64,000 bases of DNA from Balneolales bacterium. GTDB taxonomy: Bacteria > Bacteroidota > Rhodothermia > Balneolales > Cyclonatronaceae. Numbering within the stretch: position 1 is the stretch's first letter; every line of letters begins with the position of its first letter. Under the pieces are notes generated by a model that was not told the origin of the DNA, made no database searches, and worked only from the letters and a program-made list of their open reading frames with translations. This document shows, piece by piece, positions 4,359 to 21,359 of the stretch. A program made the translations under genes and the position numbers. The stretch covers positions 1 to 64,000 of the forward strand of contig JAFIET010000004.1 of assembly GCA_020832405.1 (NCBI GenBank). The letters are read 5' to 3'.

Positions 4359-5125
4359 GGTTGCCCTAAATATGCATTAATAACTTCCTGATGGTTTATG
4401 ACCTCTTCGGGCAGACCCTCTGCCAGTTTTTTCCCGAAATTAATGACCAATATGCGATCGGATATATCCACAACCATCTGCATATTGTGCTCAATCATTA
4501 CCACTGTGATGCCAAATTCATCACGAATATCACGAATCCAGAAAATCAAATCTTCACGCTCTTCATTGTTAAGACCGGCGGCCGGTTCATCCAGTAAAAG
4601 CAGATCGGGTTCCATACATAATGCACGGCCCAGTTCCACCATTTTCTGGATTCCGTACGGCAGCTGCGAAACGAATTTATCGCGATAGGCCTGCAGGTCG
4701 AGTATGTCGATAATCTCTTCCACTTTTTCCCGGTGTTTTATCTCTTCCTGTGCGGCTTTTGACCCTCGCCACCACATCGATGCCGATGCTAACAGTCCGG
4801 TTTTCATATGCAAATGCCTGCCCAGCATCAGATTCTCCATTGTTGTTAACCTGGAAAACAGCTCTATGTTTTGAAATGTACGTGCTATGCCGAGGGATGC
4901 CACACCGTTTGAACTGAGGTTTGTGATCTCTTCCCCTTTATAGGAAATGGTGCCGTTTTCGGGGGTATAGATACTGTTGATGCAATTAAACAGGGTTGAT
5001 TTACCGGCGCCATTCGGTCCGATTACGGAATAGATTTCACCCTTTTCAACCGAAAATGAGAGGTCATCCAGCGCTTTCAGCCCTCCGAATGTTTTGGTGA
5101 TATGTGAAACCTTAAGCATCGGCAT
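4355..5125 (-). CDS. livG: ABC transporter ATP-binding protein, LivG type
   Basis: A 256-residue ATPase with Walker A GPNGAGKST, the Q-loop region RTFQNIELF and Walker B LLLDEPAAGLN, all typical of LivG. The signature motif is divergent: LPYGIQKMVELGRAL in place of LSYGxQRxLEIARAL. It ends with NFGKKLAEGLPEEV and a terminal YLGQP, which is the LivG C-terminal domain. The start overlaps the livH stop by one base (TAATG) and its stop overlaps livF, so all subunits are produced together. Confidence 0.93.
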   Translation of the reverse strand: MPMLKVSHITKTFGGLKALDDLSFSVEKGEIYSVIGPNGAGKSTLFNCINSIYTPENGTISYKGEEITNLSSNGVASLGIARTFQNIELFSRLTTMENLMLGRHLHMKTGLLASASMWWRGSKAAQEEIKHREKVEEIIDILDLQAYRDKFVSQLPYGIQKMVELGRALCMEPDLLLLDEPAAGLNNEEREDLIFWIRDIRDEFGITVVMIEHNMQMVVDISDRILVINFGKKLAEGLPEEVINHQEVINAYLGQP

Positions 5126-5997
5126 TATACTTTCCTCACGTAGTGATGCCCCAAAATACCGGCCGGTTTGAAAACCAGCACCAGCACAATAATCAAAAAT
5201 GCCACAACCGATTTAAACTCTAACGAAACATAAAAGCCGAAAAGATTTTCAATGATACCCAGCAAATATCCGCCGATGATGGCACCGGGCAGGCTGGTCA
5301 TGCCGCCAAGTACGGCCGCTGCAAACCCCTTCATGAGCGGGTCCCACATCATATTTGGATCGAGTGTGGTGATGGGGGCAATCATCATCCCCGCCATGGC
5401 ACCGATCACCGAACTGATGGCAAACGAGATCCCCAGGATACGGTCTTTTGGAATGCCGTTAATCTCGGCGGCCATCGGGTTCTGCTGAACGGCTTTCATG
5501 GCCAGGCCCAATTTGGTCCGGCTCAAAAAGAACCACAACATTACCATAATGATGATTGATGTCAGGATCGTTGCCACTCCCAGGTGGCTGATTACAACAC
5601 CCCCTACATTGATAGTGTCAGTTTCAGAAAAAGGCATCCCAAGCCGGCGTTGATCAGACCCCCATCGCCACCCGGTCATTCCGTACAAAAACAGCTGAAA
5701 CCCGAGAGTGACGATAATGAGGTTTAAAATATTGGGTTCTTTGGCACGCCGGATAAACAAAAACTCAAACAGAAAACCCAGTATCACGGCAAAGATCATA
5801 GCGCCGGCAAATGCCATCCAGAATGGCCATCCATGCACCACCAAAATCATATAGGCAATATAGGTTGAGATCATCCCCATATCACCCTGTGCAAAGTTCG
5901 GAATTTCCGAAGCTTTATAGATGATGGACATAGCAAGGGCAAGCATAGCATAAATGCTTCCAATGGTTAATCCGCTAATGATCAGTTGACCGGTCAT
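5125..5997 (-). CDS. livH: ABC transporter permease, LivH type
   Basis: An integral membrane permease of about 290 residues and eight or so helices. The sequence YKASEIPNFAQGDMGMISTY is the LivH signature near the N-terminus, and AAVLGGMTSLPGAIIGGYLLG is the cytoplasmic loop that contacts the ATPases. An upstream in-frame start at 6066 would add 23 residues that overlap livM and have no family match, so I place the start at 5997, directly after the livM stop. It pairs with LivM to form the translocation pore. Confidence 0.92.
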   Translation of the reverse strand: MTGQLIISGLTIGSIYAMLALAMSIIYKASEIPNFAQGDMGMISTYIAYMILVVHGWPFWMAFAGAMIFAVILGFLFEFLFIRRAKEPNILNLIIVTLGFQLFLYGMTGWRWGSDQRRLGMPFSETDTINVGGVVISHLGVATILTSIIIMVMLWFFLSRTKLGLAMKAVQQNPMAAEINGIPKDRILGISFAISSVIGAMAGMMIAPITTLDPNMMWDPLMKGFAAAVLGGMTSLPGAIIGGYLLGIIENLFGFYVSLEFKSVVAFLIIVLVLVFKPAGILGHHYVRKV

Positions 5998-5998
5998 A

Positions 5999-7048
5999 TT
6001 AAAAGGGCCAGGTTTTCCAGTAGGTTTTAATGCGGCTCCAGATGCCGTACAGGCCAAGCGGTTCAAATAAGACGATCAGTATCAGGATCAACCCTGTTAG
6101 CACCCAAACGATGTTGGGAAGTCCGCTCAGTGTCATAAATTGTTTAGAAAATGCTTCCAGCAGCTGCCCGATGCCGGGAATAGTCTGCACATTTTCGAGC
6201 TGCAGGCTTAGAAAAGTGACCACAACGGCTCCCAGCACAGAGCCGAGAATGGTACCCAGCCCGCCGATCACAACTGTAGCCAGGTACAGTATAGAGAGTA
6301 TAAAGCTAAACAGGCCGGGGTTGATGAAGCCGATCAGAATCGCCCATAACCCTCCTGCAATACCGGCATAAAAGGCACTCACCGCAAAACTGAGGGTTTT
6401 ATAGTAGCTGACATTGACGCCCATCGCGGCCGCTGCAATATCGCTGTCGCGAACTGCCTGAAATGCCCGGCCCGGACGGGTTTTTAAAAAGTTTCGGGCA
6501 AAAATTCCCAGCAGTACAGCGGTGATCATAGCCACATAATAGACAGACTCATCGCGGGTTAAACCTAAGGATTCGAAACGAACAGCAGGCACGGATAGTC
6601 CCATATGTCCGCCGAAAAAGCCCACTCTTCCAATGACAGTTGTGATGGCAAGGCCAAATGCCAGCGTTGCGATAGCCAGATATGGCCCTTCCAGCCGAAG
6701 GGCGGGCAAGCCGAGCAGAAAACCGAAAAAAGCAGCGATGAGTCCGCCGGCAATCATGGCCGGGATAAACGGTACTGCGAATGAAATCATCAGGATAGCG
6801 GTGGTGTAGGCGCCAATCGCAACAAACCCGGCGTGGCCCAGGGAGATCTGTCCGGTATTTCCCACCAGCAGGTTCAGCCCGAGTGCAACAATGACATTAA
6901 CGGCCATCAGGCTCAGGATATAGACATAGTATCCCTTTATTATGAATGGAAGGGAAGCCAATGTGATCAGCAGCAGGAAAAACCAGAACCTGGCTGTTTT
7001 TCCATGCAGAAGCTGCACATCCTCATAATAGTCGCGCTTCATATCCAT
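5999..7048 (-). CDS. livM: ABC transporter permease, LivM type
   Basis: A 349-residue permease with the LivM signature GLNLLVGNTGQISLGHAGFV and the coupling loop VVIGGLGTILGSVLGA. The N-terminus is hydrophilic for 25 residues and then spans the membrane repeatedly. The gene starts at the ATG at 7048 (or 7042) and overlaps by one base the stop of the 56-residue ORF before it. The gene order livM-H-G-F-synthetase-binding protein is not the E. coli order (livKHMGF) but is complete for a functional importer. Confidence 0.93.
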   Translation of the reverse strand: MDMKRDYYEDVQLLHGKTARFWFFLLLITLASLPFIIKGYYVYILSLMAVNVIVALGLNLLVGNTGQISLGHAGFVAIGAYTTAILMISFAVPFIPAMIAGGLIAAFFGFLLGLPALRLEGPYLAIATLAFGLAITTVIGRVGFFGGHMGLSVPAVRFESLGLTRDESVYYVAMITAVLLGIFARNFLKTRPGRAFQAVRDSDIAAAAMGVNVSYYKTLSFAVSAFYAGIAGGLWAILIGFINPGLFSFILSILYLATVVIGGLGTILGSVLGAVVVTFLSLQLENVQTIPGIGQLLEAFSKQFMTLSGLPNIVWVLTGLILILIVLFEPLGLYGIWSRIKTYWKTWPF

Positions 7049-7218
7049 TATAACAGAGTACTGAGATTAGATGGGTTAATTTGCTGCCGTACTGTCAACT
7101 CAGTAGTTGTAAGAAGCAGGCTGCCTTCTTCCAGTGCCAGTGCCTTGACGGTATTGACGGGTAAGGTTCCCATTTTGAGTACCGCTACTAAAGTCAGAAA
7201 CACCCAGTAGTTTTTCAT
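7048..7218 (-). CDS. 56-residue small ORF heading the liv-type operon
   Basis: The frame encodes MKNYWVFLTLVAVLKMGTLP at the start, a hydrophobic stretch resembling a weak signal peptide or membrane segment, then a polar tail ending NPSNLSTLL. The stop overlaps the livM ATG as TAATG, a typical translational-coupling arrangement. The ATG is 12 nt after the conserved leader block at 7231-7243, the same spacing as in the second module. No family is recognised. It could be a regulatory leader peptide that feeds ribosomes into livM, a small membrane protein of the transporter, or a decayed gene. Confidence 0.5.
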   Translation of the reverse strand: MKNYWVFLTLVAVLKMGTLPVNTVKALALEEGSLLLTTTELTVRQQINPSNLSTLL

Positions 7219-7230
7219 TGTCTGTGTGTT

Positions 7231-7344
7231 GATTGAAGTTTGAAAGAAATATGATAATCAATTCCAGGTTTGTGTTGTTTATAGTAGCTCAGAAAAACGA
7301 TCCATACTTGGACTATCCGCGCAAATGTTTGGACTTTTCGGTCA
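7231..7344 (-). promoter_or_regulatory. Promoter/operator module, copy 2, driving the liv-type operon
   Basis: This copy aligns without gaps to 245-358. Half-sites TTGGACT are at 7308-7314 and 7329-7335 (21-bp spacing). The TACTAT -10 candidate on the minus strand is at 7281-7286, and a GATTGAAGTTTGA leader block lies at 7231-7243. The upstream edge of the core coincides with the HTCS stop codon (7342-7344). The spacing of half-sites, -10 and start codon is identical in the two copies. It is the only plausible promoter between the HTCS gene and the transporter operon, and the HTCS with its AraC domain is the obvious candidate to bind it. Confidence 0.65.
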
Positions 7345-10300
7345 AATAGAGAGTTTTCTGAATGCAGAGGGGCTTTTGCCATACTGCTTTTTGAAGGCGC
7401 GTGAAAAGTAGGCCTGATCATTAAAACCGACTTCATAGCAGATTTCAGCTATGGCTTTGTCTGTCTGGTTCAGAAGTTCAGCCGAGCGCTGCAATCGGAT
7501 GGACCTGATGAAGGTTCCGGCCGGCTGATCCACAAGCGCGTTCAGTTTTCGGTTTAACTGGGAAACGCTCATGTTCAGGGAATCAGCTAAACTCTCAACC
7601 CGGTACTCTTCATCATGCAGATGTTGGTCGAGTACATCAATAGCTTTTTTCAGGAAAGCCTGATCCACCGTACTTTCTGCAATGGCTGCAGGCCTGAAAT
7701 AGGTGGCTGTACTGAACTGCTTTTTCAGATTCTTTCGCTGTTCGATGAGGTTTCTGACCCTTGTTTGCAGCTCCCGAAGATGATACGGCTTGGTCAGGTA
7801 GGCATCGGCCCCGGTTTCCAGCCCCTCGATTTTTGAATCCATTCCGGCCTTAGCCGTGAGCATAATCAAAGGGATATGGCTTGTTTTTTCGTTACTCCGG
7901 ATTTTTTCACTGAACTGGTAACCGTCCATTTCGGGCATCATCAGGTCGGTGATAATGAGGTCGGGGATTGCAGCCTGAGAAACCTCAAGTCCTTCCACAC
8001 CATTTGCAGCCTCGAGTACGGTATACTCTTTTTCGAGCTGTTCACGAATAAAGGAACGGACTTCAGCATTGTCTTCTACAATCAGTACAATTTCATTGTG
8101 TTCAGATAGAAGGGACGAGAAATCCGGCATTGCCGGAAGTTCCGCAGTAACATCAGGTGACGACTGAATATCAATTCCTGAATCCGCTTGTGTCAGAATA
8201 CCATTATCCTCATAGGGGAACTTAATCACAAATTCCGTTCCCTCACCTTCTTCACTGAACGCCCGAATGGAGCCCTTATGGAGCTCCACCAGTTCATAAA
8301 CCAGCGACAGGCCAATGCCCGTGCCTTCATATTTGCGGGTGCCGGACTGATCAACCTGGTAAAACCGGTCGAAAATATGCGGAAGGCGGTCTTCGGGAAT
8401 ACCAATTCCGGAATCCTTAATGATAATTTCAACCGACTCCTGTCCGGCTAAATTTATAGTAACGTCTATATGGCCGCCCTTCCCCGTAAACTTGAACGCG
8501 TTCGACAACAGATTTATAAAGATCTGCTCCATTTTTTCAGTGTCAAACTGCACGTAAATAATGGCCTGTGAAGCGTAGAAATTGAGCTGCATCTGGTTTG
8601 CTTCCGCATGCGATTCAAAAGAGAAAAGCAGGTTCTTCAGAAATGAAACAATGTTTTGTGGCTTTGTTTTTAATTCCAGTTTCCCCGCTTCCAGTTTTGA
8701 TAAATCCAGGAGCTGATTGATCAGCGAAAGCAGCCTTTCCGCATTCGAATTAACAGAAATGAGTTTTTCTTTTTTTCTGCGGCTGTCTTCCGTTTGCAGC
8801 AACGCCTCTGTCTGGCCCATGATAAGCGTAAGCGGTGTTCTGAACTCGTGAGAAATATTGGCAAAGAAATGAGACTTTAACTGGTCGAGGTTTCGGAGCG
8901 AATCGGATTGTACCCTTTCAAGCTCAAGCTGATTTTTCAGGTTTAGCCGGTTCATTTCGTACCACCGGAGGAAATAGATAGCCGAAAGAAACAGAAAACC
9001 ATACAAGGCATATGCCCACCAGCTGTGCCACCAGGGAGGCAAAATGATAAAAGCATATTCAAACGGCTCACTCCATACACCACTCTCACCTATGGCACGC
9101 ACCTGAAAGATATGGGTTCCAAAGGGCAGGTTACGGTAATCAGTCATTGGGTCGGCGGTTGGCTGGCTCCAATTTGCATCTAAGCCCACCATTCTGTAGC
9201 TGTACCGGATTTTATGCGGTGCCGCCCAATCTATAGCTGCGAAATAAAAGGTGAGGTGGTTTTTATTGTATGGCAGCTGTAACCCGAGCGGATAGTTCGC
9301 AAAGTTTTGCACACCGGTAAATGTGATTTGATTCCGATCCCTGGCGGGGTTATCCGGCATGTTGCGATAGTCAATAAACTGCTCATTAATTCTTAATTGG
9401 GATAAACGGGGTTGAGGTATTTTAGCAGAAAATGCAAGGGTATTCAGATCCAGCATTGTTATGCCATTTCCGGTGCCCCACCATGCCCGGTTTTTACTGT
9501 CGATAATGGCACCCGGGTTAAATTTCAAGCTTTTCAACCCATCTAAATTGCCAAAGTTTTGAACACTAAACTGAAATTCAGAACCACCGGGCGTAGGATA
9601 ATCCGTCAACGAAATTATTGACAGCCCGTTTTCCGTACCCGCAAAAACACGGGTTTCATGTAAAGGGGCACTTTTATCTTCTATGATGGAGAAAACGCTG
9701 TTATGGGCTAAGCCTTCGTTTACGGTAAAATGGGTAAAGCTTTCTCCGTTAAATATGTTGACCCCTCCGCCTTCAGTAGCCAGCCATATATTACCGTTTT
9801 TGCCCTCCAGAATAGACCAGACGTTATTATTGGATAATCCTTCGTCCACGGTATAATGGGTAAAGCTTTCTCCGTTAAAAACGCTCACCCCACCACCCTG
9901 CGTGCCAAGCCAGATGTTTCCGTCTTTATCCTCTATGATGGAGAAGACAAAGTTACTTGATAATCCTTCGCTTTCGGTGTAATGGGTAAATCTCTCTCCA
10001 TTGTATACGCTCACCCCACCGCCACCTGTGCCCAGCCAGATGTTTCCGCTGCTGTCCTCTAAAATGGAGGAGACGCTGTTATTTGATAAGCCCTGATTTA
10101 TCGTGTAATGGGTAAAGCTTTCACCGTTGTACACGCTCACCCCACCGCCACCGGTCCCCAGCCAGATATTTCCGCTTTGATCCTCCAGAATGGACATCAC
10201 GATACTATTGAATAAGCCTTCGTTTACAGGGTAACGGATAAAGCTTTCTCCGTTAAATACACTCACTCCGCCGCCCCAGGTGCCCAGCCAGATGTTTCCG

Positions 10301-11769
10301 CTTTGATCCTCCAGAATGGTCCAGATGTCATTATGGGATACGCCTTCTTTTGTGGTGTAATGGGTAAAACTCTGGTCATTAATCAGGTTCAGCCCTCCGC
10401 CTTCAGTTCCCAGCCAGATATTACCACTTTGATCCTCCAGAATGGACCAAACGGTATTATGGGATAAGCCTTCGTTTTCGGTGTAATGCGTAAAGCGCTC
10501 TCCATTAAATACGTTAACCCCACCACCTTGTGTGCCAAGCCAGATTTTGCCGCTTTGATCCTCGAGGATGGAGAAGACGGTATTTTGGGATAGGCCTTCG
10601 TTTGTGGTGTAATGGGTAAAGCTACCTCCGTCAAATACATTCACCCCTCCGGACCAGGTACCCATCCATATATTTCCGTTTTGATCTTCCAGAATGGACC
10701 AAACGGTATTATCGGATAAGCCTTCGTTTGTGGTGTAATGGGTAAAGCTATCTCCATCAAACACGTTCACTCCGCCGTCCAAAGTACCTATCCAAATATT
10801 TCCGCTTTGATCTTCCATAAGCGAGAAGACTGTATTTTGGGATAAGCCTTCATTTACGGTATAAGGGTTAAAGCTTTCCCCGTCAAACACGCTCACCCCG
10901 CCACCTTCAGTTCCCACCCAAATATTGCCGTTTTGATCCTCCAATAGGGCCGCGACGAAATTATTGGATAAGCCTTCGTTTACGGTGTAATGGGTAAAAC
11001 TTTCGCCATTGTACACACTCACCCCACCGCCACCAGTGCCGAGCCAGATATTTCCGCTTTTATCCTGCAGAATGGCCCTCACGAGATTATTCGACAAGCC
11101 TTCGGTTACGGTGAAGTGGGTAAAACTATCACCGCTATATACGCTTACCCCTCCACGGGTTCCCACCCAAATATTTCCGCTACGATCCTCCAGGACGGCC
11201 CTTACGTAAGATGAAGCCAAACCATGTTCCACATTTAAAAATTGCAGGTGAGCAATGGCGGCATCCCTGCTTGAGGGTGGCATGGCTATGGTGGCTCTGG
11301 AATGAACAGCATTTACCGGTTTACCGGTAGCCGGGATTGGAACACCGGTGGGTAACGTTTCTCCTGCGGGGCTAACCAAAGCAAAATCGGAGTCGCCCTC
11401 CCCCAGAGAGATGGTTCTGAGATGGCTTCTGTCAATGGGTATGGTAGTTCGTTCGTTGGGTATTGCTTGCCGGTTGGGGTGGGCATTTATTCTGGTTAAC
11501 GCTTCACGGTCAACGGTAAAAGATCGGGGGCTGACCACGCTGTCGGGGTGCATAATTATTGGTGTAGCGGGGACAGGTTGGCCTGGTGTTAGCTGAACCG
11601 TTTTAGGCTGAGGGAAAAGCGTTGGTGGGAGTATGGCGTCCTTATCTCCGAACGTGCGGGTACAGGCCGCAAGAAAAACAAAAGGCAGTAAAACCAGCAG
11701 CATCCCAACAACCCCTGCCTTTCCGGCAGGCAGGCGGGCAGAGGGAAATAGCGTTGTTTGGCTAAACAT
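7342..11769 (-). CDS. Hybrid two-component system regulator (HTCS, AraC output)
   Basis: A single-chain sensor-regulator of about 1475 residues. After a lipoprotein-like signal (FLAAC) and a linker come two-component-regulator propeller blades (twelve GNIW-type repeats plus two degenerate ones, enough for two seven-blade propellers), a Y_Y_Y domain and one membrane segment (WWAYALYGFLFLSAIYFL). The cytoplasmic part has a HisKA domain with phospho-His about 974 (NISHEFRTPL), an HATPase domain, a receiver with Asp about 1275 (TDLMMPEMDG) and a C-terminal AraC helix-turn-helix. HTCS proteins usually sense oligosaccharides beside SusCD genes; none are seen here. The upstream start at 11799 would overlap the kinase gene by 38 bp, so I prefer the Met at 11769 (8-bp overlap). 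Confidence 0.92.
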   Translation of the reverse strand: MFSQTTLFPSARLPAGKAGVVGMLLVLLPFVFLAACTRTFGDKDAILPPTLFPQPKTVQLTPGQPVPATPIIMHPDSVVSPRSFTVDREALTRINAHPNRQAIPNERTTIPIDRSHLRTISLGEGDSDFALVSPAGETLPTGVPIPATGKPVNAVHSRATIAMPPSSRDAAIAHLQFLNVEHGLASSYVRAVLEDRSGNIWVGTRGGVSVYSGDSFTHFTVTEGLSNNLVRAILQDKSGNIWLGTGGGGVSVYNGESFTHYTVNEGLSNNFVAALLEDQNGNIWVGTEGGGVSVFDGESFNPYTVNEGLSQNTVFSLMEDQSGNIWIGTLDGGVNVFDGDSFTHYTTNEGLSDNTVWSILEDQNGNIWMGTWSGGVNVFDGGSFTHYTTNEGLSQNTVFSILEDQSGKIWLGTQGGGVNVFNGERFTHYTENEGLSHNTVWSILEDQSGNIWLGTEGGGLNLINDQSFTHYTTKEGVSHNDIWTILEDQSGNIWLGTWGGGVSVFNGESFIRYPVNEGLFNSIVMSILEDQSGNIWLGTGGGGVSVYNGESFTHYTINQGLSNNSVSSILEDSSGNIWLGTGGGGVSVYNGERFTHYTESEGLSSNFVFSIIEDKDGNIWLGTQGGGVSVFNGESFTHYTVDEGLSNNNVWSILEGKNGNIWLATEGGGVNIFNGESFTHFTVNEGLAHNSVFSIIEDKSAPLHETRVFAGTENGLSIISLTDYPTPGGSEFQFSVQNFGNLDGLKSLKFNPGAIIDSKNRAWWGTGNGITMLDLNTLAFSAKIPQPRLSQLRINEQFIDYRNMPDNPARDRNQITFTGVQNFANYPLGLQLPYNKNHLTFYFAAIDWAAPHKIRYSYRMVGLDANWSQPTADPMTDYRNLPFGTHIFQVRAIGESGVWSEPFEYAFIILPPWWHSWWAYALYGFLFLSAIYFLRWYEMNRLNLKNQLELERVQSDSLRNLDQLKSHFFANISHEFRTPLTLIMGQTEALLQTEDSRRKKEKLISVNSNAERLLSLINQLLDLSKLEAGKLELKTKPQNIVSFLKNLLFSFESHAEANQMQLNFYASQAIIYVQFDTEKMEQIFINLLSNAFKFTGKGGHIDVTINLAGQESVEIIIKDSGIGIPEDRLPHIFDRFYQVDQSGTRKYEGTGIGLSLVYELVELHKGSIRAFSEEGEGTEFVIKFPYEDNGILTQADSGIDIQSSPDVTAELPAMPDFSSLLSEHNEIVLIVEDNAEVRSFIREQLEKEYTVLEAANGVEGLEVSQAAIPDLIITDLMMPEMDGYQFSEKIRSNEKTSHIPLIMLTAKAGMDSKIEGLETGADAYLTKPYHLRELQTRVRNLIEQRKNLKKQFSTATYFRPAAIAESTVDQAFLKKAIDVLDQHLHDEEYRVESLADSLNMSVSQLNRKLNALVDQPAGTFIRSIRLQRSAELLNQTDKAIAEICYEVGFNDQAYFSRAFKKQYGKSPSAFRKLSI
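9706..11220 (-). repeat. Twelve tandem ~126-bp repeats encoding propeller blades
   Basis: Each unit encodes about 42 residues with the core SGNIWLGTxGGGVSVxNGES, then FTHYTVNEGLSNN. Units 2, 9 and 10 share the near-identical stretch NIWLGTGGGGVSVYNGE. The high DNA-level similarity among the middle units points to recent unequal crossing-over or gene conversion, and makes the region prone to length variation and assembly collapse. Confidence 0.9.
11714..11730. repeat. Short CCTGCC/GGCAGG hairpin inside the HTCS signal region
   Basis: CCTGCC (11714-11719) pairs with GGCAGG (11725-11730) and is followed by a further CAGGCGGGC. It encodes the residues LPAGKAG between the start and the hydrophobic core of the HTCS signal peptide. 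Similar CCTGCCGGCAGG hairpin words are common dispersed elements in Bacteroidota genomes, so this may be a small repeat inserted in frame. Confidence 0.4.
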
Positions 11770-14700
11770 GCAGCTCAATGGTAAACGTGGTGCCTTCATG
11801 CTCTTTGGTTTTTATACCGATAGTACCTCCGTGTGCTTTAATAATATCATTGGTAATACTAAGTCCGAGGCCTGTTCCCTGTGTGCCTTTTTTCGTGGTA
11901 AAAAAAGGCTGCATGATTTTATCTTTGATTTCGCGCGGGATACCGGGGCCGTTATCTTCGATTTCAACCAACACTTTACCCTGCTGAAGTTTCGTCCTGA
12001 TGATTAAGCTTGCAGGCCTCTGCTCTGCAATAGTCCGCATGGCATCGAATGCATTGTTGCACAGGTTAATTACTACCCGTGTGAAATCTTCACTGATCAG
12101 GGGCACATTTCCAACAGCAGCATCAAGCTCAAACTCAAGTGCTACATTAAAAGCATCTTTAGCGGCCCGCATACCATGGAAAGAAAGGTTCACATATTCT
12201 TTAATGAGCGCATTCAGGTCTGTTGGTTCCATTTTCCCGGAACTGCCTCTGCTGTGCATGAGCATAGACTGCACAATGGCGTTAGCCCGCGAACCGTGCT
12301 CGTAAATTTTTCGCAGGTTGGCTTCGATATCGTCCAGGATTTCGGTTACGATATCATCCTCTGAACCGGCATTGCCTGCTATCAGGCCTGAGAGTTCTTC
12401 CCGTAATTCATCTACCATTTCAATCGATACCTCCGAGAAATTATTGACGAAATTAAGAGGGTTTTTGATTTCGTGGGCAATACCTGCAGTGAGCTGACCG
12501 AGGGAGGCAAGTTTTTCCTGCTGAATGAGCTGCTCCTGAGTGGCTCTCAGGTTTTCCAGTGAAGCTTTCAGGTCGGATGTTCTTTCCTCAATTTTCAACT
12601 CGAGGTTTTCGTACAGCTGTGCATTTTCAAGGGAAACGGCAATTTGACCGGAAAGCAATTCAAGAAAACGGACCCTGCCCTCGGTAAATACTGAGGTCTG
12701 CAGCTTATTCTCCAGGTACAGAATGCCTTCAGATTTCCCCTTGCTTGATAAGGGAAGGCACATAACCGATTTCAGATTGTTTGCTTTCACGACAGGATCG
12801 GCCATAAAGCGGTTATCTTTGGCGATATCATCTAAAACAAGGCTCTGAGCTGTGTTCTGAACGTACTGAATGAGGCTTTCCGGGACGCGCTCATTTTCCG
12901 GAAGCAGTGTTTCAGTATGCTCAGAAGGATTTTTCGCACCGACAAAATAGGCGCTTTTAATGTACCATTGCTGCCCCTTTTTCATGATGATACAACCGGA
13001 TTCGGCTCCGGCATTTTCAATGCTGATGCTCAGCAGGGTTTTCAGCAGCCGCTCGAGCACAACCTCTCCGGAAATCGCCTGTGCAGCTTTCATCAGGGTA
13101 TCAAGGTCCAGAGCAGCACTTTCTGTAGATGAGGATTCGGACTGTGCGCCTGATTTTGTGGCACTCTGAAGGTCCGGATCCAGCCCGATAAGAAACTGAG
13201 GATACTGTTTTTTCAAATCCAGTGTCTTTGCTGCAGCACCCCACTCTTTATAGGTCTGAAATGCTTTCCGCACATAATTTTCGGCTATGAAATCCTGTCC
13301 GGCTGCGAGGTAGTACATACCGGCTCTTTCAAGAGATAATGCCTGTTCGTTAAGGAATTCCCCCTTTTCCGCACCCTTGATTGCCAGCTCATAGTGTTTT
13401 CGGGCTTTGCTGTCTTCCCCCCTGCACCAGGCCATTTCAGCATTCAGTAAATCCAGTTTGTGCTGATGGTTTACCGGGCAGAACTTAGCCCATTTCCGGA
13501 ACTGAGCGATATTTTTTTTCGCACGGCGCAGCAGGGTTGTACGGTTACTTCCACTCTGCTCACGTGCTACTGCCATAGCTGCCAGCCCTTCATAAAACCA
13601 GAATACCGCCACATCGTATTTGGCGAGTACCGCATCCAGCAAAGGCCGTGCGGATACGGCATGGGCCTGCGCTTTGGTATACTGACGAAAAAGGTACTTA
13701 AGCATCAGGTTGTTGATGTGGATCAGGAAGATTCCGGCCCGGTCTTTCCGCTCTTCATGTAGCGGAGCCATTATTCGTTCATCATAAGCTTCGCCCGACA
13801 ACACCGCCGGGTCGGCAGAAAGACCGAGCAGGTTACGCGCTGCCTGACGGTACACTTCGTTATAATTGTAATTGGTTTCCTGCCTGTAGTTGAGCATCTG
13901 TTCACTGAACATTTTCATCTCCCGCTCAGACTGTTCAAGGGGTTTCCCTCCCAGATAAATATGGTTGCAATAGATGTTCACATTTATGCAGGCGTACTCG
14001 ATTGCGCCTGTTTCAAACCCAACCTTATATGAATAGAGGAAAGGATCAAGCGATTTGTGTACATGCTCGCTCCAGTGATTGATGAGGGCGTAAACCGGGG
14101 TGTAGATCTGCGACAACCATTTTTTGGCTTCAAACCGATCGAGCAGTGCCAGGCCAATCTGCCCGAAGTGATATCCGGAACGCATATCGCCGAGAACCCC
14201 GCACATCAGCAGTCCGTAGGTAGCAAAGCCGAAAGCCGAAATTTCCGTCACCCCGTACTTAAGGGAGAGCCGGACCATCCGGAAAATAACAAAAGGCAGA
14301 ATTTGCGGTCGTGCCCAGTACACCGGCGAAGCAATATCATTGAGCATCCTCAGGGCGGCGGCCTTGTAGGGATTGGTCATTTCCGGCAGGCCTGAAATGG
14401 TTTCTTTATCTTTGCCCCTAAGCATAATTTTGGTACGAATCAAATCAGCCATCACCAGCGGCAGCGGACCCTTTTTGGGGAATTTCTCACCGAGCTGCTC
14501 CAGCACTTCAAGGCCGGTATCGATGGCTTCCTGCAGTTTATTTTGGGCTTTAAGCGCGTTAATACGAATCGCGTAGGGTCTCACCGCATCCATCAGCTCT
14601 TTTCTGTACGTCAGTATGGTGCGTAGTTTTTCTTCCATGGGCCCGAAATCGCCCATATTGTAGGCTGTTTCAGCTGCTTCTGTAAACAGAGCAAGGCTCA

Positions 14701-17023
14701 GATTGTACTGCGACTCCCAGTGATCATCCTTCAATAAACCGATACCTGTTTCGAAATACCCCAAAGCCGGCTGGAAAGCTGATGACTCCCGTGCTTTGAT
14801 GCCGGCACGGAGGTTCAGCTCAATAACCGTTCTCCGCTCAGCTTCAGTGTTGATGAGCTCAAGCCCCTGATTCAGCTGATTTATAATTTCGAAAAGCTGG
14901 GTTTCCAGCTGCTCTTCCGAAACCTTTTCTAAGAGAAGTGAACCAATCTGATAATGTACCGAGCTTGTTCCGCCCTGCGGAATAAGGGAATAAACGGCCT
15001 GCTGAATCCGGTCATGGGTGAAACGATAACGGTTTTCAACCGGCATAATATAGCCATCGGCAAGGGCGGCCTGAAGCGCCCGCAGTATCATCTCATTTTC
15101 AGCATCGGAAACCTGCCCCGGGCCGGATTTCGGGCTATAGCACGCGGCCAGGGTTTCCGTATCGAACTGATTGCCGATACAGGCAGCAATCTTCAGAATT
15201 TCCTGCGTATTTTCCGGAAGGAAGGTGATTTTTCCGGCAAGCAATTCTACCACGTTATCGGTGATGTTCCGCTCCCGAATCTGTTCATCATTCCATTTCC
15301 ACATCCGGTTTTTGTAGTCGAAATGCAGAAGTGATTCCGCTGCAAGGCTCATTAGGAACTGTGTCACAAAAAAAGCATTGCCCAGGGTTTTCTCATAAAC
15401 CAGTCCCGCAAGGGAAGCGGTCTGATTAAGCGGCAGATGTGTAGCGTCTGAAATCAGCTGATGTACATCCGCTTCCTCAAGATTTCTGATGCTGATTTCA
15501 CTAATTACGGCACCTTTTTTCCGCATTTCATCCATCGTTGTGATGAAGGGATGCGCCTCACTCACCTCGTTATCCCGGTAAGCGCAGATGCACATCAGGT
15601 TTTTGAGTTCTTTGTTCGACATCAGCACACTAAGCAGCGAAAGGGATGCGCTGTCGGCCCATTGCAGGTCGTCGATAAACATCACAATGGGGTTTCCGCC
15701 AGCGGTGATCGCCTGTACAAAAGAGCTGAACAGATAATTGAGGCGGTTTTGCGACTCAAGACCACCGAGCCGGGGAATGACGGGCTGCGGGCCAATCAGC
15801 AGCTCAAGGTTCGGGATCAGATCAGTGAGCACCTTTCCTTCATCTCCCACTTTATCTCTGATCTGCTTTTGCAGCTGTTCCAGCCGGGGTTTGTTTTCCG
15901 CAAGCAAAATCGAAACAAAACTGGTAAACAGCTGAATGAACACCAGATAAGGGACGGAGCGCTGAAACTGATCGAATTTCCCTTCAATAAAATACCCTCT
16001 TTGGGCTGTGATCGGGCGGTGTGTTTCATGTACCAGAACTGATTTCCCTGTGCCTGAGTAACCGCCCACGAGCACCGTTTCGACATGGCCGTCAGCGACC
16101 CGGTCGAAGGCGTCCATCAGCATGCCCAGTTCTTTCTCGCGGCCATACAGTTTTTGAGGAAGCCGGAAATCACCAGAGAAATCATGCTGAGCCAGCTCAA
16201 AATCGTAGATACGGCCCAGTTTTTCCCACTCATCGAGGCAATACTGCAGGTCTTTCAACAGGCCCCGTGCTGACTGATAGCGGTCCTCAGCATTTTTGGA
16301 CATGAGTTTAAGGATGATACGCTCCAGCATTTCCGGTATATCCTTCCGGTAAAATGACAGCGCCGGCGGCTGAGCAGCAATATGTGCATGAACAATCTCC
16401 ATGGGGTCGTCCGACTGAAAGGGAAGTTGTCCGGTCAGCATTTCATAAAAAGTAACCCCGAGCGAGTACAGGTCTGTACGGTAATCGACCATTCTGTTCA
16501 TTCGGCCGGTTTGTTCCGGCGAGACGTAAAGCAAAGAGCCCTCAAGCTTTTCCGGGTTCTCCAGGCTCTTCTTTTTCAGATTCAGTTTAGTAGAAATACC
16601 AAAATCAAGCAGATAAACCTCACCGCTATCTTCGCAGATAATAATGTTGTGGCTGTTAATATCCTTATGGATAATTTTTGCCGTATGTACGTCTGATAAA
16701 ATTCCGGAAATTGCAATGGCATATTTCAGGAAATCAGGCGCATTGAACACATCTTTTTCAACGATTTCCCGGATGGTTTTTCCGGGCACGTATTCCAACA
16801 CAATTGCATGTCGATTGTGTACCCTTTTCCGGCCAAAGCTTTTTCGTACCCCTTTGATGGAGAGGCCGTGCGTCAGTTCATGCTCGTTGTAAAACTGATT
16901 GATGAGCTGCAGCGACGGAAACTCCTGGTTCAGAATTTTTGTAACAACTCTGATTCCCCTTTCCTCATCATCATTAAGGACAATCTTTGAGCCCTTGCTT
17001 TCATAAAAAAGTTCTTCTGCCAT
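11762..17023 (-). CDS. Dual Ser/Thr-kinase and histidine-kinase protein (HstK-like)
   Basis: A 1753-residue cytoplasmic signalling protein. The N-terminal Ser/Thr kinase spans about 1-270, with catalytic loop HKDINSHN (Asp121, Asn126), DFG at 140-142 and SPE at 168-170. A STAND/AAA-type ATPase follows with Walker A GGYSGTGKS at 320-328 and Walker B-like IVMFIDDLQWAD, then a long helical TPR-like middle section, a GAF domain (about 1290-1450), and HisKA with His1517 (GIAHEIKNPLN) plus HATPase to the end. The architecture matches the cyanobacterial HstK/multi-kinase family. It follows the catalase-related gene by 12 bp and overlaps the HTCS start, so it is probably co-transcribed with both. No dedicated response regulator is adjacent except the receiver in the HTCS. 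Confidence 0.9.
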   Translation of the reverse strand: MAEELFYESKGSKIVLNDDEERGIRVVTKILNQEFPSLQLINQFYNEHELTHGLSIKGVRKSFGRKRVHNRHAIVLEYVPGKTIREIVEKDVFNAPDFLKYAIAISGILSDVHTAKIIHKDINSHNIIICEDSGEVYLLDFGISTKLNLKKKSLENPEKLEGSLLYVSPEQTGRMNRMVDYRTDLYSLGVTFYEMLTGQLPFQSDDPMEIVHAHIAAQPPALSFYRKDIPEMLERIILKLMSKNAEDRYQSARGLLKDLQYCLDEWEKLGRIYDFELAQHDFSGDFRLPQKLYGREKELGMLMDAFDRVADGHVETVLVGGYSGTGKSVLVHETHRPITAQRGYFIEGKFDQFQRSVPYLVFIQLFTSFVSILLAENKPRLEQLQKQIRDKVGDEGKVLTDLIPNLELLIGPQPVIPRLGGLESQNRLNYLFSSFVQAITAGGNPIVMFIDDLQWADSASLSLLSVLMSNKELKNLMCICAYRDNEVSEAHPFITTMDEMRKKGAVISEISIRNLEEADVHQLISDATHLPLNQTASLAGLVYEKTLGNAFFVTQFLMSLAAESLLHFDYKNRMWKWNDEQIRERNITDNVVELLAGKITFLPENTQEILKIAACIGNQFDTETLAACYSPKSGPGQVSDAENEMILRALQAALADGYIMPVENRYRFTHDRIQQAVYSLIPQGGTSSVHYQIGSLLLEKVSEEQLETQLFEIINQLNQGLELINTEAERRTVIELNLRAGIKARESSAFQPALGYFETGIGLLKDDHWESQYNLSLALFTEAAETAYNMGDFGPMEEKLRTILTYRKELMDAVRPYAIRINALKAQNKLQEAIDTGLEVLEQLGEKFPKKGPLPLVMADLIRTKIMLRGKDKETISGLPEMTNPYKAAALRMLNDIASPVYWARPQILPFVIFRMVRLSLKYGVTEISAFGFATYGLLMCGVLGDMRSGYHFGQIGLALLDRFEAKKWLSQIYTPVYALINHWSEHVHKSLDPFLYSYKVGFETGAIEYACINVNIYCNHIYLGGKPLEQSEREMKMFSEQMLNYRQETNYNYNEVYRQAARNLLGLSADPAVLSGEAYDERIMAPLHEERKDRAGIFLIHINNLMLKYLFRQYTKAQAHAVSARPLLDAVLAKYDVAVFWFYEGLAAMAVAREQSGSNRTTLLRRAKKNIAQFRKWAKFCPVNHQHKLDLLNAEMAWCRGEDSKARKHYELAIKGAEKGEFLNEQALSLERAGMYYLAAGQDFIAENYVRKAFQTYKEWGAAAKTLDLKKQYPQFLIGLDPDLQSATKSGAQSESSSTESAALDLDTLMKAAQAISGEVVLERLLKTLLSISIENAGAESGCIIMKKGQQWYIKSAYFVGAKNPSEHTETLLPENERVPESLIQYVQNTAQSLVLDDIAKDNRFMADPVVKANNLKSVMCLPLSSKGKSEGILYLENKLQTSVFTEGRVRFLELLSGQIAVSLENAQLYENLELKIEERTSDLKASLENLRATQEQLIQQEKLASLGQLTAGIAHEIKNPLNFVNNFSEVSIEMVDELREELSGLIAGNAGSEDDIVTEILDDIEANLRKIYEHGSRANAIVQSMLMHSRGSSGKMEPTDLNALIKEYVNLSFHGMRAAKDAFNVALEFELDAAVGNVPLISEDFTRVVINLCNNAFDAMRTIAEQRPASLIIRTKLQQGKVLVEIEDNGPGIPREIKDKIMQPFFTTKKGTQGTGLGLSITNDIIKAHGGTIGIKTKEHEGTTFTIELHV

Positions 17024-17035
17024 AATAGTACGGGC

Positions 17036-18127
17036 TTAGCTGTTCCTGATGTCATTATCCGGAATCTCAGGCGGCATTCCGAACAATCTGATGGCCCACA
17101 CCCGGGCAAATCGTGCAAAATCCGAGTGCTTGCGAAGGTAGTTGAGCGAATTGTAATCAAAAACAGAGTAGGAAGGAATAATTCCGAGGCCCACTGGCAG
17201 ATGCCTCATGGAAAAAATCATCCTTGTACTCTCCGCCCAGTCAAGAGGTTTGGTCATGGTAATGACCGCAAGATCCATCCACGGATGGGAAGTTTCATCC
17301 CACTCACGGCAGCTATTAAATATTTCATCGTCGTCATCATCCGAAGCCTCATGCAACTGAACCTGAAGTTTGTATTTTACCTGGCCTTCCCGCAATCTTT
17401 CAACATATTCATCTTTCAGGTAATTTCGGCTGCGTGTTTCGCCGGGCAGTATCCGCTGATTTTCAGTAGGTATCATTAAATCATATTCATCCAGTATGCC
17501 CGATTCCGGCACAGCTTCAGCCGGTACTGATCTGTATTTGATATAGCGCAGCACATTGTCGGCGGCTTTATACAGCAAAGGGGTCTGTGAATAATAGGTC
17601 AGGTTTGTAAAGGAAGTCGGATTGCGCCGCATACCGACCTGAGCCCCCTTAACCCCCGCCGGATACTTGCGGTAGTAGGCTTCATACTGCATGCCAAACC
17701 TTGTTTTCTTGTACTTTGCGAACCGGAAGAAGCTTGCAACCGACCAGAACAAGGCGGTTTTCCCGGTGTTGAGCTCGATATCCATCGGGCTTTTGTAGTG
17801 CGTATCAGCCATTTTTACGGACATACTCCGCACCACGCGCATCGCATCATCCATAAATGAGGCAGCGGCATGCCGTACCCTGCAGGGCATGGTTTTTCCC
17901 GGTTCAAAGAACGGATGAAGCGAAAAACCCGGCTCGTCCACAAAACGGATTGAACCCGATGCAGCAATTCCATTGTTGTGCGACATCTTTTTCCTTGCCA
18001 GGATGCTTCCGGCAACGGCGAGTACCAGGGTGAAGGCTTTGGTAGCAAACCAAAGGAAAATCAGGCCGGGCAGGCGGCTTAAAGCAACACGTACGGAGCT
18101 GAGTAACGGGATACGGTTAATTTTCAT
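17036..18127 (-). CDS. Catalase-related heme protein (allene oxide synthase-like), membrane-anchored
   Basis: A 363-residue protein with a hydrophobic anchor at about 18-44. The rest follows the small catalase-related family that includes the coral allene oxide synthase domain and cyanobacterial homologues: RVRHAAASFMDDA with His86 as candidate distal histidine, DIELNTGKTALFWS, NPTSFTNLTYYSQTPLLY (169-186), RYIKYRSVP, TRSRNYLKDEYVERLREG and IPSYSVFDYNSL. Such proteins convert fatty-acid hydroperoxides to allene oxides or other products. It lies 12 bp after the lipoxygenase gene, the same pairing that occurs as a fusion in corals and some cyanobacteria. The usual R-x3-Y proximal heme motif is not plain; Tyr330 (with Asn326 in the Arg position) is the best candidate. 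The chemistry is inferred. Confidence 0.78.
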   Translation of the reverse strand: MKINRIPLLSSVRVALSRLPGLIFLWFATKAFTLVLAVAGSILARKKMSHNNGIAASGSIRFVDEPGFSLHPFFEPGKTMPCRVRHAAASFMDDAMRVVRSMSVKMADTHYKSPMDIELNTGKTALFWSVASFFRFAKYKKTRFGMQYEAYYRKYPAGVKGAQVGMRRNPTSFTNLTYYSQTPLLYKAADNVLRYIKYRSVPAEAVPESGILDEYDLMIPTENQRILPGETRSRNYLKDEYVERLREGQVKYKLQVQLHEASDDDDDEIFNSCREWDETSHPWMDLAVITMTKPLDWAESTRMIFSMRHLPVGLGIIPSYSVFDYNSLNYLRKHSDFARFARVWAIRLFGMPPEIPDNDIRNS

Positions 18128-18139
18128 AGTTCAGGCGGC

Positions 18140-20347
18140 TCAAATGTTGGTTCGCGATTGGATGATGTCTATATCCAGATTGAGTGCGGCAAAATCCTGC
18201 CGGTGCCTTTCCAGTTTTTCCTGAAGCGCAGGCGGCACATCTCCGTCTTCATTGGCCATAATGTATCCGTAACCGGTACGGGAAAGCATATTGCTCCACC
18301 ACATCATCTGCGTTGAGCGGGTAAGATCCGGGGCAATCGAATGATCAGATTCCGGCCCGAGTACGCCATCCGGACCTTTGCCAAAACGGAGCCCAAGGCT
18401 GCAGTACAGAACTTCGCCTATGTCGTCGTACTGTTTTGAGTTCGACCAGGTATGGCCGAAAGTGGCCTGATAAATGATGTAGGTACAGGCCTGCTTCAGC
18501 TGATCAATATCACCCTCTGAAACTTCATGACCTTCTGATGTACCGGTTATTTTTGAAACGGCTCTTTTGATTCCGTCTGCTTCCGGCCGTTCTTCCTTTA
18601 AGTCCATGCGGTGATGCTTCCCGTACCAGTTCGTACTGCCGTCAGTTTTCATCCTGCCATTTTTGTCGAGCAGTGCATTTTGCAGATAATGGCAAAGGAA
18701 GGCAGGCACACTGTGTTTTACCAGATCCTGCGAGAAGCAGTAAATCTCAAACCAGTGTTTTATGATTCCGGCCCGGTTATCCGGATCATCGATATAACCG
18801 GAGACAAAATCTGAGACAATATCCCAGTACAGATTGCAGGCCCTTGCATAAGTATGTGCTGCGCTTACGGGTTGCATAGGGCGGTACCCCTTCCAATCAA
18901 GCATGCCCGTTACCTTGTAAATCACCTGATCAATTCCTTTCGGCGTGAGCGCACAGGCTGAGGTAATGTACCCGTTGCCGATCAGGATGCGGTCGGCGGT
19001 GTGGTTTACAAGCACTACTGAGCGCAGAAAGGATTTAAGCAAACCGGACACGGGATTCAGCCGAAGATTCCTGAAGCAGGCAATGGCATATTGTTCGGTA
19101 TTAACATGCGTTCCGGCAAAATGATGTGCCAGTTCTGCGTGCAAAGCTGCACTCACCCGGCAGATTCGTTTAGCCGCCAGCCACTTTACCCCATCAGCAG
19201 CTGTGAAGGATCTTTTCTGCTTATGATCTTTTTCCGTAGCGGTTAACGGACCTGTGAGAGTGATTTTCACCGGTTTAGGCAGGCCGTTTTCTTTAAGCTC
19301 AAACCACATGTCCACATCCGGCATGGCGTAATGATGGTACCTCTTTTCATAAGAACCCCAGTGATGGTGAACCCAATACAGATTCGGGTTTTTCGGGTCG
19401 CGGTCAAAATCACAGGCATACATGCCGTTCATCATTCGTTCGCCGAACCAATCGTCTTCACGGGTAATACCAGGCGCCTTCTTCTCCATACAAAGGGTCA
19501 GGTTTTCGGGGTAATCCTCTGCAATTTGCTGTTGGGTCAGGCCCTGATTTATACGGATCATTTCAAGGTGCCGGAGTTTGATGAGCTCAACCGGGATAAA
19601 CTGTTTTTCAATGGCCTCATTGTAACCGGGCGAATAAGCGTCTGGCGCATTTTTGTCGTGATCGCTGATAACAACACGGGGCAGCGGCGTATCGCTTCGG
19701 TACTCCCAGTATGAGAGCTGAACCTGCCGGCAGCAGTATTCAATGCCAACCAGATCTCCCTTAGGGATTTTGACCCGCTTTATTTCAGTCAATACAGCAG
19801 CATGCCCGCCTTTTTGATTGAAGTGTTCATAACCAGTCTGATATACCCCAAGCCAGACCCTTGCAATGTAAAACCTGTGTACGTAAAATAAATCATAAGC
19901 AAGGCTAAACTCTCCGTTCCGGTCTGACAGCCCTTCACTGAGCTTGCGGTACCCGCCCCAAATTGTCTGTGCCCACAGCTCGGTATGCATATTAAATACC
20001 GGAGAATCTGCCTCTTCTTTACGGGTGCCAAAAGTAAGGCGGCCGGTTACCACATGATGCATCCCGGGCTTTCCGTAAATTTTGCTCCGCCGTGGAAAAA
20101 TAATCCGGTACAGGGCCTGAAAAAAGCGTACCAGCGTTTCGTATAATTCCCAAACATGCAGCGCTATCCGCTGAACAATGCCCCCGTGTGTCGCTGATCG
20201 GTGAAACTCAGCTTTGTTCAGATTCTTTAAGCGGGGATGAAAAAAACGGCGCTTAAGACCATGGGTAATCTTCGTGCTTTGGATGCATTGCCCTAAATCA
20301 GTCCCCGGCTGTTCTGCTTGTACCGGTACAGTTTCTGTTTTATTCAT
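18140..20347 (-). CDS. Lipoxygenase
   Basis: A 735-residue non-heme iron (or Mn) dioxygenase that makes hydroperoxides from polyunsaturated fatty acids. The central motif ALHAELAHHFAGTH gives His403 and His408 as metal ligands, followed by NTEQYAIACFRNL. The third and fourth ligands are His632 and Asn636 in FGHTWSN, and the chain ends in Ile735, whose carboxylate is the usual fifth ligand. DDWFGERMMNG (about 298-308) is the conserved N-terminal substrate-site motif. One extra residue lies between His408 and the TH pair compared with plant and animal enzymes. No signal peptide is visible; amphipathic helices near 56-85 may insert into membranes. It is the first gene of a four-gene unit with the catalase-related protein, dual kinase and HTCS. 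Confidence 0.88.
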   Translation of the reverse strand: MNKTETVPVQAEQPGTDLGQCIQSTKITHGLKRRFFHPRLKNLNKAEFHRSATHGGIVQRIALHVWELYETLVRFFQALYRIIFPRRSKIYGKPGMHHVVTGRLTFGTRKEEADSPVFNMHTELWAQTIWGGYRKLSEGLSDRNGEFSLAYDLFYVHRFYIARVWLGVYQTGYEHFNQKGGHAAVLTEIKRVKIPKGDLVGIEYCCRQVQLSYWEYRSDTPLPRVVISDHDKNAPDAYSPGYNEAIEKQFIPVELIKLRHLEMIRINQGLTQQQIAEDYPENLTLCMEKKAPGITREDDWFGERMMNGMYACDFDRDPKNPNLYWVHHHWGSYEKRYHHYAMPDVDMWFELKENGLPKPVKITLTGPLTATEKDHKQKRSFTAADGVKWLAAKRICRVSAALHAELAHHFAGTHVNTEQYAIACFRNLRLNPVSGLLKSFLRSVVLVNHTADRILIGNGYITSACALTPKGIDQVIYKVTGMLDWKGYRPMQPVSAAHTYARACNLYWDIVSDFVSGYIDDPDNRAGIIKHWFEIYCFSQDLVKHSVPAFLCHYLQNALLDKNGRMKTDGSTNWYGKHHRMDLKEERPEADGIKRAVSKITGTSEGHEVSEGDIDQLKQACTYIIYQATFGHTWSNSKQYDDIGEVLYCSLGLRFGKGPDGVLGPESDHSIAPDLTRSTQMMWWSNMLSRTGYGYIMANEDGDVPPALQEKLERHRQDFAALNLDIDIIQSRTNI

Positions 20348-21322: not shown

Positions 21323-21359
21323 AGCCTCAGTCGCCGGAAAGCGGCTGAGGCTTTTTTTT
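21323..21359 (+). terminator. Intrinsic terminator after the T9SS remnant
   Basis: A 12-bp stem (21323-21334 with 21341-21352, one G-T pair) and CGGAAA loop are followed by a run of T. It is the expected terminator of the decayed plus-strand gene. Confidence 0.85.

Follow-up and report, generated by a model that had tools for sequence, protein, structure and literature searches.

The window analysed here is a 64,000-nucleotide stretch of a Balneolales bacterium genome (contig JAFIET010000004.1), and the gene cluster described below lies on its minus strand. The first gene encodes a 735-residue lipoxygenase (LOX; 18140..20347) and the second a 363-residue protein of the catalase-related type, similar to coral allene oxide synthase (cAOS) but without the proximal haem tyrosine (17036..18127). 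Exactly 12 bp separate the LOX stop codon from the next ATG. Both open reading frames were found where a previous sequence-only reading of this DNA had placed them and, as it claimed, the LOX and the catalase-related protein are encoded as two separate genes. The third gene, which that reading left out together with the loss of the haem tyrosine, starts 12 bp past the stop codon of the cAOS-like gene and encodes a giant sensor kinase of 1753 residues (11762..17023). The end of the kinase gene is overlapped by the open reading frame of a hybrid two-component protein (7342..11799), which is probably the operon's fourth gene. A scan for sigma-70 promoters returned no excess over shuffled sequences.

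The lipoxygenase

The LOX matches Pfam PF00305 with 40.6 bits, above the gathering score of 23.6, and its best phmmer match in the PDB is 5ek8 (E = 5.2e-94, residues 100-734), which bears out the earlier identification of a full lipoxygenase. Alignment to soybean LOX and 5ek8 gives the iron ligands as H409 and H414 (19106..19123), H632 and N636 (18440..18454) and the C-terminal I735 (18143..18145), and all five are invariant in the 13 LOX sequences compared. The sequence-only reading was right about the completeness of the metal site and about H632, N636 and I735, but it named His403 and His408 where the ligands are H409 and H414. Neither of these two positions is conserved among the 13 LOX, with 403 being H, Y, N, C, S or V and 408 being H, Q, E or D. 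The closest LOX by sequence, 5ek8 (668 residues), which we take to be the 9R-LOX CspLOX1 from Cyanothece, has the same five metal ligands; the enzyme described here differs in its longer N-terminal part and in its operon partners. The two also differ at the Gly/Ala switch that governs the stereochemistry of LOX oxygenation (PMC5437038), as the corresponding residue A451 (18995..18997) is Ala in 13 of 13 LOX and Gly in 5ek8; with Ala here, S products would be expected to predominate.

A 2024 review lists bacterial LOX only from Cyanobacteria and Proteobacteria (PMC11011848), and in the literature searched we found no characterised case from Bacteroidota, as the earlier reading had supposed. Plasmids searched with the LOX query gave no match. 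The genome containing the window has no desaturase or pfaA scoring above cut-off, so this species probably obtains its polyunsaturated fatty acid (PUFA) from its surroundings.

Haem site of the catalase-related protein

The 363-residue protein has no match in Pfam or NCBIfam. Its sequence matches coral cAOS (1u5u) over residues 32-332 with an E-value of 1.6e-56, in agreement with its earlier placement in the catalase-related family. The fold, which had been named as the point to check, is catalase-like in an AF2 model with a pLDDT of just 60.8, and Foldseek ranks 1u5u first for this model (E = 5.8e-23, probability 1.00); an earlier AF2 model built from 7 sequences was poorer (pLDDT 51.6). A hydrophobic N-terminal segment (residues 22-40; 18008..18064), located in a predicted helix spanning residues 8-43, is a putative membrane anchor. 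Such a segment is found in all 11 cAOS-like proteins, and the stretch of the coral protein used for comparison has it in weak form.

The proximal haem ligand Tyr353 defines the catalase-related family (PMC5617202). In a gapless alignment, coral R349-V-A-V-Y353 corresponds to R332-K-H-S-D336 (17120..17134), placing Asp at the ligand position here and D, E or G in all 11 cAOS-like sequences. When the coral sequence is included in a MAFFT alignment, a 4-residue gap opens after R349 and the site becomes F, Y, N, K or R, with Tyr in one sequence only. Under either pairing, tyrosine is not conserved at the proximal site. A conserved substitute was sought in the proximal helix, but no H, Y, C, M or K is invariant among the 11 sequences. 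A sequencing or annotation fault was also rejected, as the loss is common to 11 loci in different genomes, where the reading frames run on and the sequence is conserved. AF2 models the proximal helix poorly (block mean pLDDT 26-49), so the evidence for a missing ligand comes from the sequence alignments. In a distant Sinorhizobium protein of the catalase-related type (23% identity), R-x-x-x-Y is retained, and the loss of tyrosine is therefore specific to the Bacteroidota clade. The cAOS-like gene is under strong purifying selection, with dN of 0.09 versus dS of 1.7 between the window and locus L002, and dN of 0.07 versus dS of 0.97 between loci L013 and L059; thus, the Tyr-less protein is maintained.

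On the distal side, S49-H50 (coral T66-H67; 17978..17983) and N120 (coral N137; 17768..17770) are invariant, with Ser in place of coral Thr66 in 11 of 11 sequences. R85 and R332 are invariant as well. Lys107 and Lys60, which bind the substrate carboxylate in coral cAOS (PMC5617202), are not conserved, with S or T aligned at 107 and variable residues at 60. F133, also invariant, aligns to coral position 150, which is Phe in coral hydroperoxide lyase and Leu in cAOS.

Retention of the whole distal pocket and of R85/R332 under purifying selection, together with a lyase-like Phe at 150, would suit a protein that continues to work as a haem enzyme, using a residue other than Tyr as axial ligand (for instance His50, formerly distal, or the carboxylate at 336 in sequences that have one), and that acts on the hydroperoxide by lyase, peroxidase or epoxyalcohol chemistry. 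We consider this possible but rather unlikely, because the proximal helix offers no conserved replacement: besides the D, E or G at 336, position 334 is H, N or Q.

Linkage to a giant kinase within Bacteroidota

According to Pfam, the giant sensor is composed of a Ser/Thr kinase, AAA_16, a long middle region without Pfam matches, GAF, HisKA and HATPase, in that order. It thereby resembles the HstK-type dual Ser/Thr-His kinases known from cyanobacteria (cbSTKIII; 'trifunctional serine/threonine-protein kinase/ATP-binding protein/sensor histidine kinase'), which also combine kinase, AAA, GAF and histidine kinase in one chain, and it is 33-39% identical to the best cyanobacterial and proteobacterial plasmid copies. 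The LOX-linked members are distinct, however, as 10 of 11 form a single clade (support 100/99), with 16 unlinked kinases falling outside it, and several have a cyclase end. The family is rare, occurring in 17 of 296 Bacteroidota genomes, which include all 6 where LOX was found. The hybrid two-component protein contains a Reg_prop propeller, Y_Y_Y, HisKA, HATPase, a receiver and an AraC-type HTH (Pfam), and in L002 a Reg_prop/Y_Y_Y/HK gene is found 149 bp upstream of LOX.

Of 13 loci, 11 combine LOX with the giant kinase or its cyclase version, and 9 of these also carry the cAOS-like gene; three gene orders occur. LOX was also the query used to find these loci. The contig scan of the genomes used a single query sequence and reached close relatives only. 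LOX, cAOS-like and kinase genes are adjacent in the window, L002, L004, L011, L013, L059, L060, L061 and L064. L063 and L020 have LOX with the kinase and no cAOS-like gene, and Algoriphagus lacus (L003) has LOX with the cAOS-like gene and no kinase next door, so no member of the unit other than LOX is obligatory.

The kinase/cyclase and the regulator might do no more than control expression of the LOX enzyme set, serving defence, neighbour killing or PUFA removal, in which case the linkage would reflect regulation and not the reading of a LOX product. The kinase is within the same apparent operon, a DNA-binding hybrid two-component protein comes next in the window, and HstK-type kinases of cyanobacteria are reported to be nitrogen- or iron-responsive (PMC2176072), all of which would fit. 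However, the kinases form a LOX-specific clade, and the output end differs between histidine kinase and cyclase among the linked loci while linkage to LOX stays. A common input accounts for this more readily than a common promoter target does, and we give regulation alone a minor share of the probability.

The sequence-only reading had proposed a canonical two-enzyme pathway, in which the LOX hydroperoxide is converted to an allene oxide by the catalase-related protein. Full-length homology to coral cAOS, the catalase-like fold and the invariant distal His and Asn are compatible with this, as is the fact that LOX adjoins the cAOS-like gene in every locus carrying the latter. Nevertheless, with a residue other than Tyr at 353 in all 11 sequences, K60 and K107 not conserved, distal Thr66 changed to Ser and Phe at 150, canonical allene oxide synthesis by the 363-residue protein is not supported by the alignments. 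The pathway also leaves the conserved kinase unexplained, and we regard it as quite improbable. A chance neighbourhood, or hitch-hiking in a recent transfer with no functional link, is hardly credible: the LOX and cAOS-like proteins of the window, L002, L003 and L004 are 73-84% identical in distant Bacteroidota hosts, suggesting block transfer, but the linkage is seen again at 41-50% identity with three gene orders and the linked kinases form a clade.

A candidate signalling module

The best reading of the locus, to which we assign a probability of about 0.5, is a dedicated LOX-based lipid-oxidation signalling module. The usual presence of a giant kinase/cyclase neighbour suggests oxylipin signalling over a simple two-enzyme pathway, and thus points to a module in Bacteroidota that has so far gone unrecognised. 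In the first step, LOX would oxygenate a PUFA to the hydroperoxide, as expected from its complete metal site. The membrane-associated cAOS-like partner would then bind or transform the hydroperoxide, presumably not by canonical tyrosinate-haem AOS chemistry because the proximal tyrosine is gone; it may be a haem-free binding protein or pseudo-enzyme, or a haem protein with another axial ligand. Finally, the giant Ser/Thr-kinase-AAA-GAF protein would read the state of LOX, its product or its partner and respond through its histidine-kinase or cyclase end, a step that we infer from linkage. In the window, a DNA-binding hybrid two-component regulator also appears to belong to the operon. More tentatively, the locus may be a complete sense-and-signal system for oxylipins, in which LOX makes the hydroperoxide, the membrane-anchored Tyr-less catalase fold is its receptor or carrier, and the giant kinase/cyclase converts the signal into phosphorylation or a cyclic nucleotide.

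The AOS-LOX fusion of the coral Plexaura homomalla (PDB 1u5u, 3dy5) similarly unites a catalase-related domain and a LOX in one pathway, and the likeness extends to a 195-bit match, the distal His-Asn pair and the best predicted-fold match. In the window, by contrast, the genes are separate with LOX first and a partner of the kinase/cyclase type, the LOX is nearer to 5ek8 than to the coral enzyme, and the cAOS-like protein has a hydrophobic N-terminal helix as well as the T66S and L150F changes, lacks Tyr353 and does not conserve K60 and K107. The hydroperoxide lyase of Capnella imbricata (cHPL) shares Phe at 150 and a LOX partner, but catalytically important residues are retained there (PMC5617202), whereas the Bacteroidota clade is without the tyrosine. 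The catalase-LOX fusions of Acaryochloris and Anabaena, compared here by description, are bacterial and combine the same two families, but they are fused and characterised (PMC11719350). Oxylipin-dependent quorum sensing (ODS) in Pseudomonas aeruginosa also involves a bacterial oxylipin operon tied to signalling and an exogenous fatty acid, though its components are diol synthases and OdsR, a regulator of the LysR type, while a LOX operon, a catalase-related protein and a giant kinase are all absent. For a possible coupling of oxylipin synthesis to a gene-regulating receptor, as in ODS, the indication here is gene linkage.

Work on LOX and catalase-related oxylipin enzymes has treated them as sources of lipid mediators in animals, plants and cyanobacteria. 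A Bacteroidota LOX with a dedicated kinase/cyclase unit would provide a genetically tractable bacterial case of LOX-based signalling, and a natural catalase fold that is Tyr-less yet strongly maintained allows a direct test of the role of the fold without its haem ligand.

Gene layout in the window

The lipoxygenase (LOX; 735 residues, 18140–20347) and the catalase-related protein (cAOS-like, after the coral allene oxide synthase cAOS; 363 residues, 17036–18127) are encoded on the minus strand with 12 bp between them, at the positions assigned in the sequence-only reading. A third large ORF, absent from that reading, starts 12 bp past the cAOS-like ORF on the same strand (11762–17023) and encodes a giant HstK-type kinase with Ser/Thr kinase, AAA_16, GAF, HisKA and HATPase Pfam domains. 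The end of this gene is overlapped by the ORF of a hybrid two-component protein that carries an AraC-type HTH (7342–11799, minus strand). Because they are closely spaced and share a strand, the four genes appear to form a single operon, as their sequence layout suggests. A promoter scan found no excess over shuffles. A strong terminator-like hairpin (21323–21352; 12 pairs and a T run) lies in the gap that separates the LOX operon from its upstream neighbour. Within the hybrid two-component ORF, a GC-rich stretch (11723–11740) encodes part of the first residues and has two 3-mismatch copies in the window (37970 and 49597), giving three matches in total versus 0.07 expected.

Active sites of the two enzymes

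The best PDB match of LOX is 5ek8 (E = 5.2e-94, LOX residues 100–734), which is titled just ‘Lipoxygenase’ and which we take to be the Cyanothece 9R-LOX. In the alignment with 5ek8 the iron ligands fall on H409, H414, H632, N636 and I735, all invariant in 13 of 13 LOX from separate loci. The last three had been named from the sequence alone, together with H403 and H408; the latter two lie in the His-rich motif but outside its ligand-bearing part, and vary among the 13 proteins. A Gly/Ala switch has been described in lipoxygenases (PMC5437038). The corresponding residue is Ala 451 in all 13 LOX, whereas 5ek8 has Gly. Ala at the switch goes with S products in the lipoxygenase family; since this pairing is general family knowledge, S products of the window LOX are a prediction only.

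The cAOS-like protein has no match in Pfam or NCBIfam. It matches coral cAOS (1u5u) by sequence (E = 1.6e-56), and 1u5u is also the best PDB match, by Foldseek, of an AF2 model built from 11 sequences (E = 5.8e-23; pLDDT only 60.8), which bears out the proposed catalase-related identity. The Foldseek list also includes fungal chanoclavine synthase, an example of unusual chemistry on the catalase fold, which can take on other uses. The dN/dS of about 0.05–0.07 reflects strong purifying selection, so the gene is not in decay. Each of the 11 proteins carries a hydrophobic N-terminal segment (Kyte–Doolittle 1.1–2.6), predicted to be helical, that would anchor it in the membrane, whereas the coral segment compared lacks it.

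In coral cAOS, function is assigned to R64, R102, R360, T66, H67 and N137 and to Y353 as the proximal ligand (PMC5617202); the PDB sequence confirms Y353 within R349-V-A-V-Y353. The gapless equivalent in the window protein is R332-K-H-S-D336. All 11 sequences have D, E or G at position 336, and their proximal helix contains no invariant Tyr, His, Cys or Met. A MAFFT alignment including the coral protein can open a four-residue gap at this site, in which case just one sequence has Tyr. In Sinorhizobium fredii NGR234, a remote catalase-related protein (23% identical) keeps R-A-I-V-Y at the equivalent place, and thus the comparison recovers Tyr where it is present. The alignments show loss of the proximal haem-ligand Tyr in the cAOS-like clade, a claim resting on sequence alignment because the proximal helix is just where the AF2 model is weakest. 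By the same alignments the distal pocket keeps its His and Asn (H50 and N120, invariant), with Ser at coral T66. The coral lysines that bind the substrate carboxylate, K107 and K60 (PMC5617202), have no conserved equivalents, and Phe occupies position 150, a feature shared with coral hydroperoxide lyase. The S. fredii symbiotic plasmid (locus L095, 4892–10945) encodes two tandem catalase-related ORFs, each with R-x-x-x-Y, adjoining a di-haem cytochrome c peroxidase and a patatin-like phospholipase; these may be a separate lipid peroxide gene set.

Distribution and linkage to the kinase

Searches of a sample of 394 Bacteroidota genomes found LOX in 6 and the cAOS-like protein in 5, each also a LOX genome. 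Order-centred searches added further LOX loci, and 13 distinct loci were annotated. Nine of these (the window, L002, L004, L011, L013, L059, L060, L061 and L064) contain LOX, cAOS-like and giant kinase genes, in three orders. L063 has adjacent LOX and kinase/cyclase genes without the cAOS-like gene (3857–11180), so the LOX–kinase pair can exist without it, and L020 has LOX, a 472-residue LOX-like protein and kinase/cyclase. LOX and cAOS-like stand alone in L062, whose contig ends shortly past LOX, and in Algoriphagus lacus (L003; L065 is the same locus). The 472-residue ORF of L020 (11715–13133, plus strand) lies between LOX and kinase/cyclase, the place of the cAOS-like gene in other loci, and matches PF00305 weakly (E = 0.018, below cut-off); it is possibly a divergent mini-LOX serving as an alternative partner. 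The kinase/cyclase gene of L060 (3998–9102) is split into three ORFs by frameshifts or assembly errors.

The output end of the kinase is a histidine kinase in the window, L002, L004 and L064, and a cyclase in L011, L013, L059, L061, L063 and L020. In L064 (genome G307), an ORF resembling a response regulator plus histidine kinase (10058–11290) lies between giant kinase and LOX, which suggests extra phosphorelay parts. This kinase type is present in 17 of 296 genomes, apparently part of the 394, including 6/6 LOX genomes. The LOX-linked copy is the sole full-length strong match in the window genome, G047, G166, G211 and G425; a second such match, unlinked, occurs in each of G307 and G126, and G424 has only unlinked ones. 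In a 27-sequence tree, 10 of 11 linked kinases fall in one clade with zero unlinked members (support 100/99, the bootstrap being not fully settled); the eleventh, from L020, is divergent and unplaced. These sequence comparisons show the LOX–kinase linkage to be conserved and clade-specific.

Among the loci, the window, L002, L003 and L004 are the most alike, with 73–84% identity in LOX and cAOS-like across differing named hosts (Balneolaceae, Algoriphagus and Flammeovirgaceae), and the cAOS-like gene was not found in five same-genus genomes, a pattern that fits horizontal transfer.

Proposed function

None of the open-licence papers found describes a LOX or cAOS-like gene from Bacteroidota, in line with the earlier statement that no characterised case is known in this phylum; our genome survey covered Bacteroidota. 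HstK-type kinases are known in cyanobacteria (PMC2176072), where we found no mention of a LOX link. Oxylipin quorum sensing in Pseudomonas aeruginosa works through diol synthases and OdsR (PMC6377657), a different protein set from the unit considered here.

Neither a match to a fatty acid desaturase nor a PfaA scoring above cut-off was found in the genome of the window's host, so its polyunsaturated fatty acids are likely exogenous; desaturases were found in 11 other hosts. LOX would convert a fatty acid to a hydroperoxide, on which the cAOS-like partner would act, and the giant kinase would read the LOX output. Because the linked kinases share ancestry while their output end has been exchanged, the evidence indicates that the LOX-linked genes form a functional unit.
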